A stretch of DNA of 64,000 bases from Methanoculleus sp. 7T (GTDB lineage Archaea > Halobacteriota > Methanomicrobia > Methanomicrobiales > Methanoculleaceae), in assembly GCF_023195915.1 (NCBI RefSeq), contig NZ_JALPRP010000002.1, forward strand, positions 310,001 through 374,000, read 5' to 3'. A model generated the notes under the pieces. The model made no database searches. It had not been told where the DNA came from and saw only the letters and a program-made list of their open reading frames with translations. Shown here one piece after another: positions 34,550 through 38,840 of the stretch. Each line of letters begins with the position of its first letter. The stretch's first letter is position 1. Position numbers and translations under genes: made by a program.

Positions 34550-34866
34550 GCACGACCCTCCTTGCCGCGAGAACGGCCTCTCTCCTGTGTCCGCGTCCCC
34601 CGGAACGGGATCGAGCACCTCGTTTTTACAAACAGCCAGAGAACGTGTAGCTGCAGTGGCCGTAAAACATAAATGTCAAGACGTTCAGGTCATTGTGCGG
34701 ATGCTCAAAACGCGTTCGCAAAACGGCGGAGGCTCACCCCATCCGTCCAAGACCGGGTGAACCCCCCACTGCCCGAAGGCAAGAGATAGGTTTGCACTTC
34801 CTGTACTTAAGGACTGTGCCTCTTTGCCTCCGGGGACGTTATAGGAGGAAAGCAAATGAATGGAAA
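34550..34866 (+). repeat. Duplicated promoter module, left copy
   Basis: About 317 bp that match 38153-38476 with scattered changes: shared blocks include GAACGGCCTCTCTCCTG/GAACCGCCTCTCTCCTG, GTTCAGGTCATTGTGCGGAT, TTCGCAAAACG, GGGTGAACCCCCCACTGCCC and CTGTACTTAAGGACTGTGCC. The similarity runs through the ribosome binding site and the first four codons (ATGAATGGAAA) of the gene downstream. It therefore carries promoter, leader and start. Confidence 0.8.
34731..34763 (+). promoter_or_regulatory. Conserved inverted repeat in the promoter module
   Basis: GGCTCACCC (34731-34739) and GGGTGAACC (34755-34763) pair over nine positions with one G-U/mismatch and a 15-nt spacer. The same arms with a different 19-nt spacer recur at 38336-38372. 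Conserved arms with a changed spacer suggest a protein-binding site. A TATA-like CTTAAGG follows at 34806-34812. Confidence 0.5.
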
Positions 34867-35617
34867 CATTGGAATGCGGGCACTCTCCGCGCTCTTCGCC
34901 GTGCTGCTGGTGAGCGTGGGTGTTGTGCCGGCGATGGCGTGCGAACCTGGAACACCTTGTAGCGATGTAAAACAAGGTATGCAAAAAACCGATTTGTCGG
35001 GCTTGGAGAAGTACGAAGCTGTTGCTTTTGCTTTGAACTTGGATGATGTGAAAAAACTCTCGGACATCTCGCGCTCTGAAGACTTTGGTTTGATCGTCGA
35101 CAACGCCCAAGCATTCTCCTTCGAAAAAAAGCTTGAAGACGGATCTATCAATCACATAACGGCCGTAGTACTCCCCATAGAATCCATTGTTGAGAAAGAC
35201 GGCTCCGTTCAGACATCGAACGTTGCCGCAATCTGGGACAGTGACACTAATCGGGTACTCAAGTCCACGTATATCTTCCAGAACAAGTCCCTATACAAAC
35301 TCACATTCAGCATAATCGATGCCAATGGAGATGTACTCGAAGAAGTAATAGTCGATGAGGGTTCATTCGTCGAAAAAATGCCGGGGCAGTTATTTGCAAC
35401 AGCAGAGGATCCGAGTTATTGGGAGTGTATTGCCGCGTGTGTCGCTATAGACTGTGCCTGCGCACTTGCTGGAATTCCCTGTCCGGGGCTGCCAATCTGT
35501 GATTTTTGTGTAACATTGTTGCCAGCCTGTGTTTACGTGCCAACCGTGATAACCTGTGGCGCTGTTGTGGCCTGCTTCGGGTTGGAAGCAACTTCATGTA
35601 TGGTCAGTTGCCTGTAA
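34856..35617 (+). CDS. Secreted halocin C8-like precursor (candidate archaeocin)
   Basis: 253 aa. A Sec signal (residues 1-28, ending PAMA before Cys29), then a hydrophilic domain (about 30-185) without recognised family, then a compact hydrophobic domain (about 188-253) with 12 cysteines at 191, 195, 200, 202, 209, 215, 218, 225, 234, 240, 248 and 252. The layout matches halocin C8 as I recall it: a precursor of similar length whose N-terminal part is the immunity protein and whose Cys-rich C-terminus is the peptide antibiotic. Composition is clearly more AT-rich than the flanks. Followed by a lipoprotein, a membrane protein and a thioredoxin-CcdA fusion. Similarity is by layout, not by profile search. 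Confidence 0.6.
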   Translation: MNGNIGMRALSALFAVLLVSVGVVPAMACEPGTPCSDVKQGMQKTDLSGLEKYEAVAFALNLDDVKKLSDISRSEDFGLIVDNAQAFSFEKKLEDGSINHITAVVLPIESIVEKDGSVQTSNVAAIWDSDTNRVLKSTYIFQNKSLYKLTFSIIDANGDVLEEVIVDEGSFVEKMPGQLFATAEDPSYWECIAACVAIDCACALAGIPCPGLPICDFCVTLLPACVYVPTVITCGAVVACFGLEATSCMVSCL

Positions 35618-35651
35618 CTATGGCAAATTTCTCATTTTTGGGGAGGGTATA

Positions 35652-36323
35652 ATGACACCACAACAGCACTATCTACTCGTGCTGGTTATCGCATTAATCG
35701 GACTCATTTGCTCTGGTTGTTTAGAAACAAACGTTGATGCCGATACGTTTCTGCGAAATGTCGCAGAGAAGCAGGCGAATATCGAAAACCTGACATATAC
35801 TGAAATATTTACTTTTCATATAGGAGAAGAAACAAGGACTGTTGAATATGATGCTACTTTAAAGACACCAGATAAATTTCGAAGAATTGAGAGGATCGGC
35901 TCGATTATACGCTCGGAGACTGTCTCTAATGGGGACATAGTCTGGATCTATGATCCAGAGGTAAACATTCTATTCATTAGAAATTCAACACCCTCAGAGA
36001 AGATACCGGAGCCTTCAATCTATGCGTTGCTGACTGACAACATTACTGAAAAATACATAATAGAGGATCAGGACGTGGGATCGCTTAACTCAATTTCAGT
36101 CCGTAAGGTAAAATTGTCTCCTCGCGAATTGGACAACGAGGATATGAGAGAGTATCTGATATGGATCGATTCTGACAGTCTTATCCCGTTGAAACTGGAG
36201 AGTTACGACAAGGGCAATCTGATGTTAACCCTGGAGTATCAAGATTACTCGATAAATTGCATAACAGATGATAATGAATTCACCTTTGCAATTCCTGCTG
36301 GCGCGTCGGTGGTGTACGCATGA
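35652..36323 (+). CDS. LolA/MucB-like lipoprotein
   Basis: 223 aa. The ATG at 35652 follows GGGAGGGT and gives a lipoprotein signal with LICSGC as lipobox (Cys about residue 23). The body (FLRNVAEKQANIENLTYTEI, LKTPDKFRRIER, GDIVWIYDPEVN) has the look of the LolA/MucB-like or DUF4292-type beta fold that binds lipids or hydrophobic partners. Codon use is AT-rich like the precursor gene 34 bp upstream. Its stop overlaps the next start (ATGA). A protective or chaperone role at the cell surface is inferred. Confidence 0.65.
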   Translation: MTPQQHYLLVLVIALIGLICSGCLETNVDADTFLRNVAEKQANIENLTYTEIFTFHIGEETRTVEYDATLKTPDKFRRIERIGSIIRSETVSNGDIVWIYDPEVNILFIRNSTPSEKIPEPSIYALLTDNITEKYIIEDQDVGSLNSISVRKVKLSPRELDNEDMREYLIWIDSDSLIPLKLESYDKGNLMLTLEYQDYSINCITDDNEFTFAIPAGASVVYA

Positions 36324-36943
36324 GGATTGATCATATCGTCAAAGAGGAACTCTTGCGCTCACTCGCAATCTACTGGATATTGTTTCTCATCATTGCTATT
36401 CCCACCGTGGGTGGCTACTTGCCGTTATCCACGGCTTCTGCATTTCCTCTGGCAGCGATCCTCACTGCAATATATTTCTGTGTCATGGTGTGGTACAGGC
36501 GGAAGGAAAATCTGCACGACCCCAACCCCATAAGCATTCTCCATCACGCCCTCCGGTTGGGAGAACAGAGAGAGGAGAAGACGAAGCAGAGAAGAGCCCT
36601 CGTTGAGAAGGTGACCGATGCCGTCCTTGCCGTCGTGATCTTCCTGATCTATCTCTACGCGTCCCTTGCATACTCCATCAACCAGGTATTCTGGCTCCCT
36701 GTCCTTGTCATCATCGGCCTGCTCCTGACGCGCATCGTCTTCATCGATGCCGGGGAGCGCCGCGTCACCCTTGCACGATCGGTTGTCTTCTACCTCATAG
36801 CAGCCGCAATCGTTGTTCTGCGCTACCTGGCACTGGGGTATCCCGTTGTCCCCCTCCTCCAGGCAATCGTGCTTATTGGTGTCGTTTCTTTTCCCATCCT
36901 CTACGTCTGGGAAAGACGATCTGCCCCGAAGGGAAAGGACTGA
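36320..36943 (+). CDS. Six-helix membrane protein of unknown function
   Basis: 207 aa with six predicted membrane helices in two groups (about residues 13-33, 38-56; 94-113, 118-137, 148-170, 174-195) separated by a charged loop (REEKTKQRRALVEKVTD). No family recognised. It starts within the stop of the lipoprotein gene, so the two are coupled. The first third is AT-richer than the rest. Immunity or export are possible roles for a membrane protein in this position; nothing in the sequence decides. Confidence 0.65.
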   Translation: MRIDHIVKEELLRSLAIYWILFLIIAIPTVGGYLPLSTASAFPLAAILTAIYFCVMVWYRRKENLHDPNPISILHHALRLGEQREEKTKQRRALVEKVTDAVLAVVIFLIYLYASLAYSINQVFWLPVLVIIGLLLTRIVFIDAGERRVTLARSVVFYLIAAAIVVLRYLALGYPVVPLLQAIVLIGVVSFPILYVWERRSAPKGKD

Positions 36944-37005
36944 GGGATGATGTCCTGCGGAGGGATGGATGTGCTCTGCACACCTCTGCGAATGACGGAG
37001 GGTTC

Positions 37006-38010
37006 ATGATCGTGAAAGCAGTGCAGGTACTTGCCGTTCTGCTCATCGCATGCACTTTGTGCATTCCTGCAGTCGCGGCCTCAACGATCTCCCTTGAATA
37101 TTACCATATGGACCGGTGCCCGGACTGTAAACTGACCGATCCCCTGATCGCGGACATAGAAAGCACCTACGACGGCGCCCTCGCGATCGAATGGATCGAT
37201 GTCGAAACCGTGGACGGATGGGAGCGATGGAACGCGTACGCATTTCTCGAAGTCCCGGCCGTGGTTGTGAACGGCACCGTCACAATTCCCAAAGAGGAGA
37301 TCACCGAAGAGAACGTCAGGGCGGCGATCGAGCAGTCCCTTGCCGGCACTGAGCCGCAGGAGAACTCGCCGCCGATTAACTGGAATATCCCGTTTGCATT
37401 CTCCCTGGGCCTTTTCTCCGGGTTTTCACCCTGCCTGATGGCAATACTCGGATTCATACTGGTTTACGTTACCGGGTCGGGCAAAGGGCTGAGAAGCAGT
37501 CTCCTGAACTCATTGATATTCGGCCTGGGGCTGGTAGCCGCGTATATCGTCCTGGGGTGCTGCTTCCTGCTGGCAGGGATGTCCCTCGGCGGTTTCGGTC
37601 CGTACCTCGCCGTCGCGGCAGGACTGATCACGATACTCACCGGGGTGAACCTGCTTGGGTTGATAAAACTCCCGATCTCCGCGGACAGTTATATCCGGTC
37701 CGCTATACAAAGGCACTCGACCACCCTTGCCGGGTTGTTCATTCTGGGCATGATATTTTCGATTGTCAAGGCTCCGTGCGCCGCACCGATGCTCCTCGTC
37801 CTGCTGAGCAGAATCCTGATCGACGGCACCGTGCAGGATTTATCACTCCTGCTGGTCTTCGGAGCCGGGGTGCTCACGCCGTTTCTCGGCGTCGGGGTCC
37901 TCGGTGGATACGCCTCATCAAGCCGGATAAGAGGATACCGGGATATAATCAAGGCTGTCAGCGGGGTTGTTTTGATTGGATTTGGGCTCTGGCTCATCTT
38001 CTGGGGATAA
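37006..38010 (+). CDS. Thioredoxin-CcdA (DsbD-like) fusion
   Basis: 334 aa. GGAGGG precedes the ATG at 37006. A signal peptide (1-25) leads to an outer thioredoxin-like domain (about 28-110) with active site CPDC (MDRCPDCKLTDP) and a cis-Pro region EVPAVVVNG. From about 125 follows a six-to-seven-helix CcdA/DsbD transmembrane domain (LGLFSGFSPCLMAILGFIL and FSIVKAPCAAPMLLVLL with the paired Cys and Pro). Such proteins carry thiol electrons across the membrane. Next to a 12-cysteine secreted peptide, a role in its disulfide formation or isomerisation is a reasonable inference. Confidence 0.85.
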   Translation: MIVKAVQVLAVLLIACTLCIPAVAASTISLEYYHMDRCPDCKLTDPLIADIESTYDGALAIEWIDVETVDGWERWNAYAFLEVPAVVVNGTVTIPKEEITEENVRAAIEQSLAGTEPQENSPPINWNIPFAFSLGLFSGFSPCLMAILGFILVYVTGSGKGLRSSLLNSLIFGLGLVAAYIVLGCCFLLAGMSLGGFGPYLAVAAGLITILTGVNLLGLIKLPISADSYIRSAIQRHSTTLAGLFILGMIFSIVKAPCAAPMLLVLLSRILIDGTVQDLSLLLVFGAGVLTPFLGVGVLGGYASSSRIRGYRDIIKAVSGVVLIGFGLWLIFWG

Positions 38011-38152
38011 ACGCTGCTGGATCCAAGCATCCGGTTCCGTATCGTTTTCATCGCTCCCTCAACGGGGAGTGAACGGTCAACGGGTAAATCTTACGGCCTT
38101 CGTCCCGGTACGGGATGTCTATAACAGTCGATTGCCGGGACTGTTGTACCTT
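38011..38152. other. Short intergenic spacer before the second promoter module
   Basis: No gene seen. It separates the CcdA fusion from the duplicated module and holds GATCGCTCCC-type GC-rich sequence without clear repeats. Confidence 0.4.
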
Positions 38153-38476
38153 GCACGATCTCCCTCGCCGCAAGAACCGCCTCTCTCCTGTACTCGTGCC
38201 CCCCGGGATGGGATGGATTGCTTCACTTCCGCAAAAACAGCCGGTTGACGTGTAGAGAGATGTGACAGAAAACATAACTGTCAGAACGTTCAGGTCATTG
38301 TGCGGATGCCCGGAATGCGTTCGCAAAACGTCGGAGGCTCACCCAGCCGATTTGCCAAACGTCGGGTGAACCCCCCACTGCCCGAAGGCGAAAGAGCGGT
38401 CTGCACTCCCTGTACTTAAGGACTGTGCCTCTTCTGCCTCCGGGTCGCGACTGGGGGAAAGAAAAATGAATGGAAA
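38153..38476 (+). repeat. Duplicated promoter module, right copy
   Basis: The second copy of the module at 34550-34866, about 324 bp, direct orientation. It includes the inverted repeat arms GGCTCACCC (38336-38344) and GGGTGAACC (38364-38372), the block CTGTACTTAAGGACTGTGCC, GGGGGAAAG as ribosome binding site and the first codons of the lipoprotein gene that follows. The spacer between the arms differs from the left copy while the arms are kept. Confidence 0.8.
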
Positions 38477-38840
38477 GAGCAGAACAAGAGACGTAGGTCA
38501 AACAGTTGGAATCACATCCATCCTCATTTTAACATTGCTCTCAAGCGGTTGCACTGATACAGGAAAAACCGATGAAGAGACCGTCATTGGAACGGTCGTA
38601 CACGTCGAAAACGACAGTGGAGTATATATCATACAGGCGGAAAACGGAACATGTTACGCTCCTGTTCATCTGGACGAAGCCTATCGGGTAGATGGCATGA
38701 TGGTTGGCTTCCGGGGGGTCATTCCGGAGAATGATGGTGTGCCAGAATCGCCGTGTATTCCTATCGAAATTCATTATATCGGTACATACGTTCCGCCCGA
38801 AACAAATGCCACATTCACACTTGAGAAACAGTTGCCGTGA
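38466..38840 (+). CDS. Small lipoprotein under the duplicated promoter
   Basis: 124 aa. The lipoprotein signal ends LTLLSSGC (Cys at about residue 30), then a small beta-rich domain (ETVIGTVVHVENDSGVYIIQ) resembling OB-fold-like secreted proteins; no family recognised. Its first codons and its entire upstream region are duplicated from the archaeocin-like gene, so the two genes are probably expressed together. Self-protection is one possible role; there is no direct sign of it. Confidence 0.65.
   Translation: MNGKSRTRDVGQTVGITSILILTLLSSGCTDTGKTDEETVIGTVVHVENDSGVYIIQAENGTCYAPVHLDEAYRVDGMMVGFRGVIPENDGVPESPCIPIEIHYIGTYVPPETNATFTLEKQLP

Follow-up and report, generated by a model that had tools for sequence, protein, structure and literature searches.

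Does a methanogen carry the genes for an antibiotic peptide of the halocin C8 kind? The question is raised by a locus in the window, the 64,000-nucleotide stretch of Methanoculleus sp. 7T DNA analysed here, in which an earlier note made from the sequence alone had recognized a candidate archaeocin locus of five genes. The archaeocins described so far are products of haloarchaea and Sulfolobales (PMC10105419). The open reading frame list and translations place all five genes where the earlier note had put them (Table 1). We hold, with a probability of about two in three, that this cassette encodes a methanogen archaeocin of the halocin C8 kind whose tail belongs to a new family; its disulfides, cleavage, killing and immunity, and the role of each partner, are what we infer.

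Table 1. Features of the locus, in window coordinates
Feature	Coordinates	Strand	Evidence
Upstream region, promoter-like, and P0001 start codon	34550..34866	+	aligns with copy 38153-38476
P0001, secreted precursor, 253 aa	34856..35617	+	ORF; orthologues
P0001 signal peptide/leader, Sec-type, residues 1-28	34856..34939	+	sequence; leader-only matches in many genomes
P0001 N-terminal domain, residues 29-187	34940..35416	+	leader-free profile-profile comparisons; remote halocin C8 N-domain homologue
P0001 proposed peptide: hydrophobic C-terminal domain with 12 Cys, residues 188-253	35417..35614	+	sequence; helical model; paired Cys losses
P0002, LolA/MucB-like lipoprotein	35652..36323	+	profile scores; family enriched beside Trx-CcdA genes
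P0003, integral membrane protein	36320..36943	+	hydrophobic segments; family enriched beside Trx-CcdA genes
821-bp block shared with G328: P0002 end, whole P0003, P0004 start	36271..37091	+	blastn, 96% identity
P0004, fusion of an extracytoplasmic CPDC thioredoxin with a CcdA/DsbD membrane domain	37006..38010	+	PF13386/PF02683; structure matches
Copy of P0001 upstream region	38153..38476	+	local alignment
P0005, small lipoprotein outside conserved cassette	38466..38840	+	ORF; homologue distribution

The P0001 signal peptide ends AMA/C at residue 28, and the leader, MNGNIGMRALSALFAVLLVSVGVVPAMA, has no twin arginine and is of the Sec rather than the Tat type. Residues 188-253 hold exactly 12 cysteines and no lysine or arginine, with a GRAVY of 1.60, so that the sequence bears out a secreted precursor with a hydrophobic 12-Cys C-terminal domain. 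In P0001 and its orthologues a single gene encodes both the N-domain and the Cys-rich peptide. A sequence search of the PDB with the P0001 family gave nothing credible, tblastn found no P0001 in plasmids, and none was found in viral contigs.

The P0001 leader, and partly its upstream DNA too, is common to many otherwise unrelated secreted Methanoculleus proteins (copies at window 34856-34939, in the leaders of loci L008-L020 and at G000:C1:1129330-1129435), as though copies of a single promoter-leader module had been set before them. Some leader-bearing proteins (L026:14085-14918 and L014 from 1501) have an Ala/Gly/Val-rich hydrophobic C-terminal segment with few cysteines, and are possibly another precursor class.

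We examined whether P0001 is itself a halocin C8. The earlier note had called the precursor halocin C8-like, and for the 12-Cys domain this was not supported by the profile search that it had proposed: TIGR04449 gave no match to P0001 at E up to 10, and profile-profile comparison of the tail with the halocin C8 domain was not significant (P 0.065 over 7 columns). No sequence test places the tail in the halocin C8 domain family. PF22862, the Halocin 8-like N-terminal domain, also gave no hmmscan match to P0001. The N-domain tells more. With leader-free profiles, P0001-type N-domains match those of other methanogen precursors (P 2e-10, probability 96.8%), and the methanogen precursor N-domains in turn match those of haloarchaeal halocin C8 (P 2e-7, probability 93.6%), while the LolA and thioredoxin controls gave P 0.02 to 0.7. 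These two profile steps support the halocin C8-like build that had been proposed, and suggest that the P0001 N-domain is remotely homologous to that of the halocin C8 precursor. The homology is transitive, via the methanogen precursors, because the direct step from P0001-type to haloarchaeal-only N-domains is weak (P 0.058). A match to the profile HNmeth was set aside in favor of the leader-free tests, since that profile covers the leader too, a part found on further secreted proteins of Methanoculleus. All halocin C8 family comparisons were made with database sequences; what we take to be the halocin C8 sequence stands verbatim in genome locus L049. The conserved stretch of the N-domain, about LTG-EK-...-AL--S-VKKL---L, looks helical, and it is tempting to match it to the N-terminal helix-loop-helix of HalI, reported as needed for immunity in a title cited in PMC11509114.

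TIGR04449 proteins are nevertheless present in methanogens (L056/L077, L067/L079, L059/L081, L084 and others), although PF22862 matched none of those at L077, L079, L081, L119 and L128, and none of the papers searched links HalC8 with methanogens. The methanogen TIGR04449 proteins and the P0001-type proteins have leader, N-domain and partner genes in common, and P0001-type partners stand beside bona fide TIGR04449 precursors at five loci (L077, L079, L081, L119, L128). Grouped by eye rather than by formal classification, about nine tail types sit on the methanogen scaffold, each with 8-16 cysteines and a hydrophobicity near that of halocin C8; one of them, type H, belongs by leader and position, its N-domain not being alignable with that of P0001. 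By profile search, the tail family of the window is described by none of the curated models searched.

P0004 was described in the earlier note as a CPDC thioredoxin-CcdA fusion, and is so by several measures: it scores above the Pfam cut-offs for PF13386 (43.7 bits, cut-off 24.9) and PF02683 (42.4 bits, cut-off 27.1), its profile matches solved CcdA and thioredoxin structures, and its family has four invariant cysteines (C38, C41, C143, C258). As control we used a more distant Trx-CcdA paralogue from the same family of genomes (31 loci); the P0004 family is set apart from it by its best matches, mostly at E<1e-100 against 1e-26 to 1e-37, and by its tie to Cys-rich precursors. Each locus was scanned over at least 7 kb to either side for secreted Cys-rich precursors, by a rule that does not depend on their family. 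Such a precursor lies near 24 of 47 P0004-family loci and near none of the 31 paralogue loci (p 4e-7), where 18 of the 47 had been chosen for a precursor or are the window itself. The remaining 29, taken from the P0004 search alone without reference to precursors, give 7/29 against 0/31 (p 0.004). Both p-values are guides, as the rule was written after several precursors had been seen, and as two pairs among the loci either overlap or share a genome. The linked thioredoxin-CcdA partner thus recurs beside Cys-rich precursors, true halocin C8-domain ones among them. The other 23 of the 47 loci have no Cys-rich precursor by the rule, some of them having other secreted proteins. Proteins of another secreted family, 310-415 aa long and with a W-(I/V)-S-like module at the C terminus, also adjoin P0004-family genes (L130:3937-5181, L144:8400-9347, L148:8399-9334, L149:8820-9914), and two members of the family match in leader or N-domain.

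The remaining partners show the same association. LolA-like genes lie near P0004-family genes at 19/46 loci and P0003-like genes at 18/46, each against 0/31 paralogue loci. The lipoprotein nature of P0002 stands (lipobox ICSGC), and it scores as LolA-like, in both cases below the curated cut-off: TIGR00547 at E 3e-10 and 39.9 bits (cut-off 112) and PF17131 at 29.8 bits (cut-off 30). P0003, noted before as a six-helix membrane protein, has several hydrophobic segments amounting to about 5-6 helices.

Near P0004-family genes we also observed, at 17/46 loci and 0/31 controls, a protein that is anchored in the membrane and has two winged-helix-like domains (L077:15167-15976, L079:3944-4726, L025:5838-6713 and 14 further loci). 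It is absent from the window. It is a candidate regulator with two helix-turn-helix domains, and as such would suit a reading in which the tail does not kill but is secreted as a peptide signal or a marker for kin recognition, to be sensed by either the lipoprotein or the membrane protein; the variation of tails between strains would suit this reading too. We judge this distinctly improbable, given the absence of the regulator from the window, the very hydrophobic tails, and the precedent of halocin C8, an antibiotic whose N-domain confers self-immunity (PMC11509114, PMC8628083).

P0001 orthologues were found in 5 of 35 Methanoculleus genomes, our own included, with two copies in G005; those within the genus are 66-68% identical. 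Outside it they occur in another Methanomicrobiales family (G481, locus L141) and in three genomes of a Methanosarcina-like family (G178, G447, G449), with 44% identity for an orthologue in a Methanosarcina-like genome. The order P0001-P0002-P0003-P0004 is preserved in most orthologue-bearing genomes. The search for linked genes in relatives that the earlier note had advised therefore yields four-gene cassettes in other Methanoculleus as well as in both outside families, and the arrangement is not due to chance because the four genes keep their order in other genomes. The fifth gene fared differently. A copied promoter before P0005 was confirmed by local alignment, in which 34550-34866 and 38153-38476 can be aligned, ATG included; by DNA search of the own genome, the two upstream copies are 81% identical over about 230 bases. 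P0005 homologues appeared only in L144 and L020 among the loci examined, so that P0005 has its upstream region in common with P0001 yet is no member of the conserved four-gene cassette, contrary to its earlier listing as part of the locus.

The GC contents of P0001 to P0004 are 0.49, 0.41, 0.54 and 0.57, against 0.63 for the window. The AT-richness of the first two genes had been read as suggesting transfer. We dropped it as a sign of transfer into this strain because the Methanoculleus orthologues compared are equally AT-rich (P0002 GC is 0.41-0.42 in all five). Better evidence of transfer is the patchy distribution together with an 821-bp block, window 36271-37091, that matches L084:1057-1877 of G328, a genome of another family, at 96% identity by blastn. 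The precursor upstream of the block in G328 is a different, halocin-C8-like one, which points to a recent exchange at this cassette. The LolA-like gene of G328 looks chimeric, its last residues coming from a P0002-like gene. We make no claim of tail swapping within the P0001 type from separate N- and C-domain trees, the C tree being poorly supported (77/85).

A variable chromosomal site, holding transferred blocks and a copy of an upstream region, is also where a Cys-rich protein and a Trx-CcdA fusion with unrelated tasks might come to be mere neighbors. Their recurrence in three or more families, where both tails and flanks differ, and the lack of any Cys-rich precursor at the 31 control loci speak against this, and we consider it the least probable of the readings weighed here.

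Rates of change differ along the cassette. Among Methanoculleus members, with G005/G023 set aside as a close pair, identity is 0.45-0.68 for the tail, 0.64-0.81 for the N-domain, 0.59-0.78 for P0002, 0.64-0.71 for P0003 and 0.86-0.93 for P0004, making the tail the most variable part and the thiol carrier the least. This fits a specific product served by generic maturation machinery, and is not by itself proof of immunity. Disrupted precursors were seen near kept partner-type genes at three loci, namely L026 (G023), with a frameshift and intact partners, L027 (G035) and L139 (G019); these truncations and frameshifts are in draft genomes, where assembly error is possible. Such patterns bear on the strongest alternative, that these are uncleaved cell-surface or secreted Cys-rich proteins (e.g., of the envelope, or with a metal or redox role) of no antibiotic action, whose thiols Trx-CcdA keeps in order. 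P0001-type proteins are indeed conserved over their whole length, the cassette includes no protease, and Trx-CcdA adjoins secreted proteins that are not Cys-rich. Even so, uncleaved proteins would poorly explain different and fast-changing tails on one N-domain family, presence in so few genomes of the genus, disrupted precursors with kept partners, and a scaffold in common with true halocin C8-domain proteins; we regard this alternative as unlikely.

For the archaeocin that we favor, the cysteines themselves give some clues to structure. Out of the twelve, L022 and L026 lack precisely C1 and C12, and three Methanosarcina-like orthologues (L078/L117/L118) lack precisely C2 and C11. Nested bridges C1-C12 and C2-C11 are suggested because the two paired losses fall in separate clades and at mirror positions; the chance of mirror pairs in both is (6/66) squared, about 0.008, reckoned post hoc. 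AlphaFold, given the tail alone with two sequences, predicts three helices (2-21, 28-43 and 47-68; pLDDT 85.9, pTM 0.62), and Foldseek found no match of this model in the PDB at E<1. A plain up-down-up bundle would not bring C1 next to C12, so the three-helix model and the pairing from Cys losses do not yet agree. A full-length P0001 model from two sequences was discarded as useless (pLDDT 37.7).

We propose that one gene yields a secreted proprotein made of a leader, an N-domain akin to HalI, the pro/immunity domain of halocin C8, and a tail, the last being a Cys-rich helical peptide of roughly 66 residues whose sequence family is new. The cysteines of the tail would pair outside the membrane, probably nested as C1-C12 and C2-C11, with further bridges besides. 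The Trx-CcdA fusion would supply reducing power to the outside and so allow wrong bridges to be reshuffled, a role favored over oxidation because CcdA-type carriers normally pass electrons outward. A protease encoded elsewhere would cut near residues 184-187, and the freed peptide would act against related strains at their membranes. Producer protection or peptide exit may be the task of the N-domain, LolA-like lipoprotein and membrane protein.

On a broader view, at least three methanogen families may have a modular antibiotic-peptide system, with a halocin-C8-type N-domain, about nine unrelated-looking disulfide-rich tails, and dedicated Trx-CcdA and lipoprotein/membrane partners; we rate this tentatively, at slightly under even odds. 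If true, it would be the first methanogen antibiotic-peptide class with a dedicated disulfide-handling partner. It would also be a testable means of competition in digesters, sediments and guts. Relatives are apparently present in Methanosarcina-like genomes, and genetic tools exist for the Methanosarcina group. The locus also raises the question of how an organism that is strictly anaerobic can form five or six disulfides in a peptide that it secretes, and set wrong ones right.

Among known systems the closest is halocin C8 (HalC8/ProC8 of Natrinema/Halobacterium and relatives), likewise a secreted proprotein with an N-terminal domain and a hydrophobic Cys-rich C-terminal peptide, the length of which spans 66-76 residues over the two systems. 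Tail length and hydrophobicity are similar in P0001, and the N-domains appear remotely homologous. The halocin C8 peptide, however, has ten cysteines in 76 residues, whereas the P0001 tail has 12 (10 or 12 in orthologues) in 66-68 residues with other spacing; export is by a Tat signal in halocin C8 and a Sec signal in P0001; and the haloarchaeal plasmid halocin C8 loci seen are without the LolA-like, membrane or Trx-CcdA partners of the P0001 cassette. The methanogen TIGR04449 proteins (L077, L079, L081, L084, L119, L128) are like P0001 in leader, N-domain family and partners and differ in tail family. P0004 has the thioredoxin domain and CcdA-type membrane domain of the CcdA/DsbD thiol-disulfide carriers. 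PMC10105419 cites a 2019 survey of archaeal polymorphic toxin systems by Makarova et al. (mBio 10:e00715-19). That survey reportedly also enlarged the halocin C8 family and may already list some of these proteins. With polymorphic toxin systems the methanogen system has in common a single scaffold whose C-terminal domains can be exchanged, and accessory genes that lie downstream, but the methanogen tails are small disulfide-rich peptides and not enzymes.
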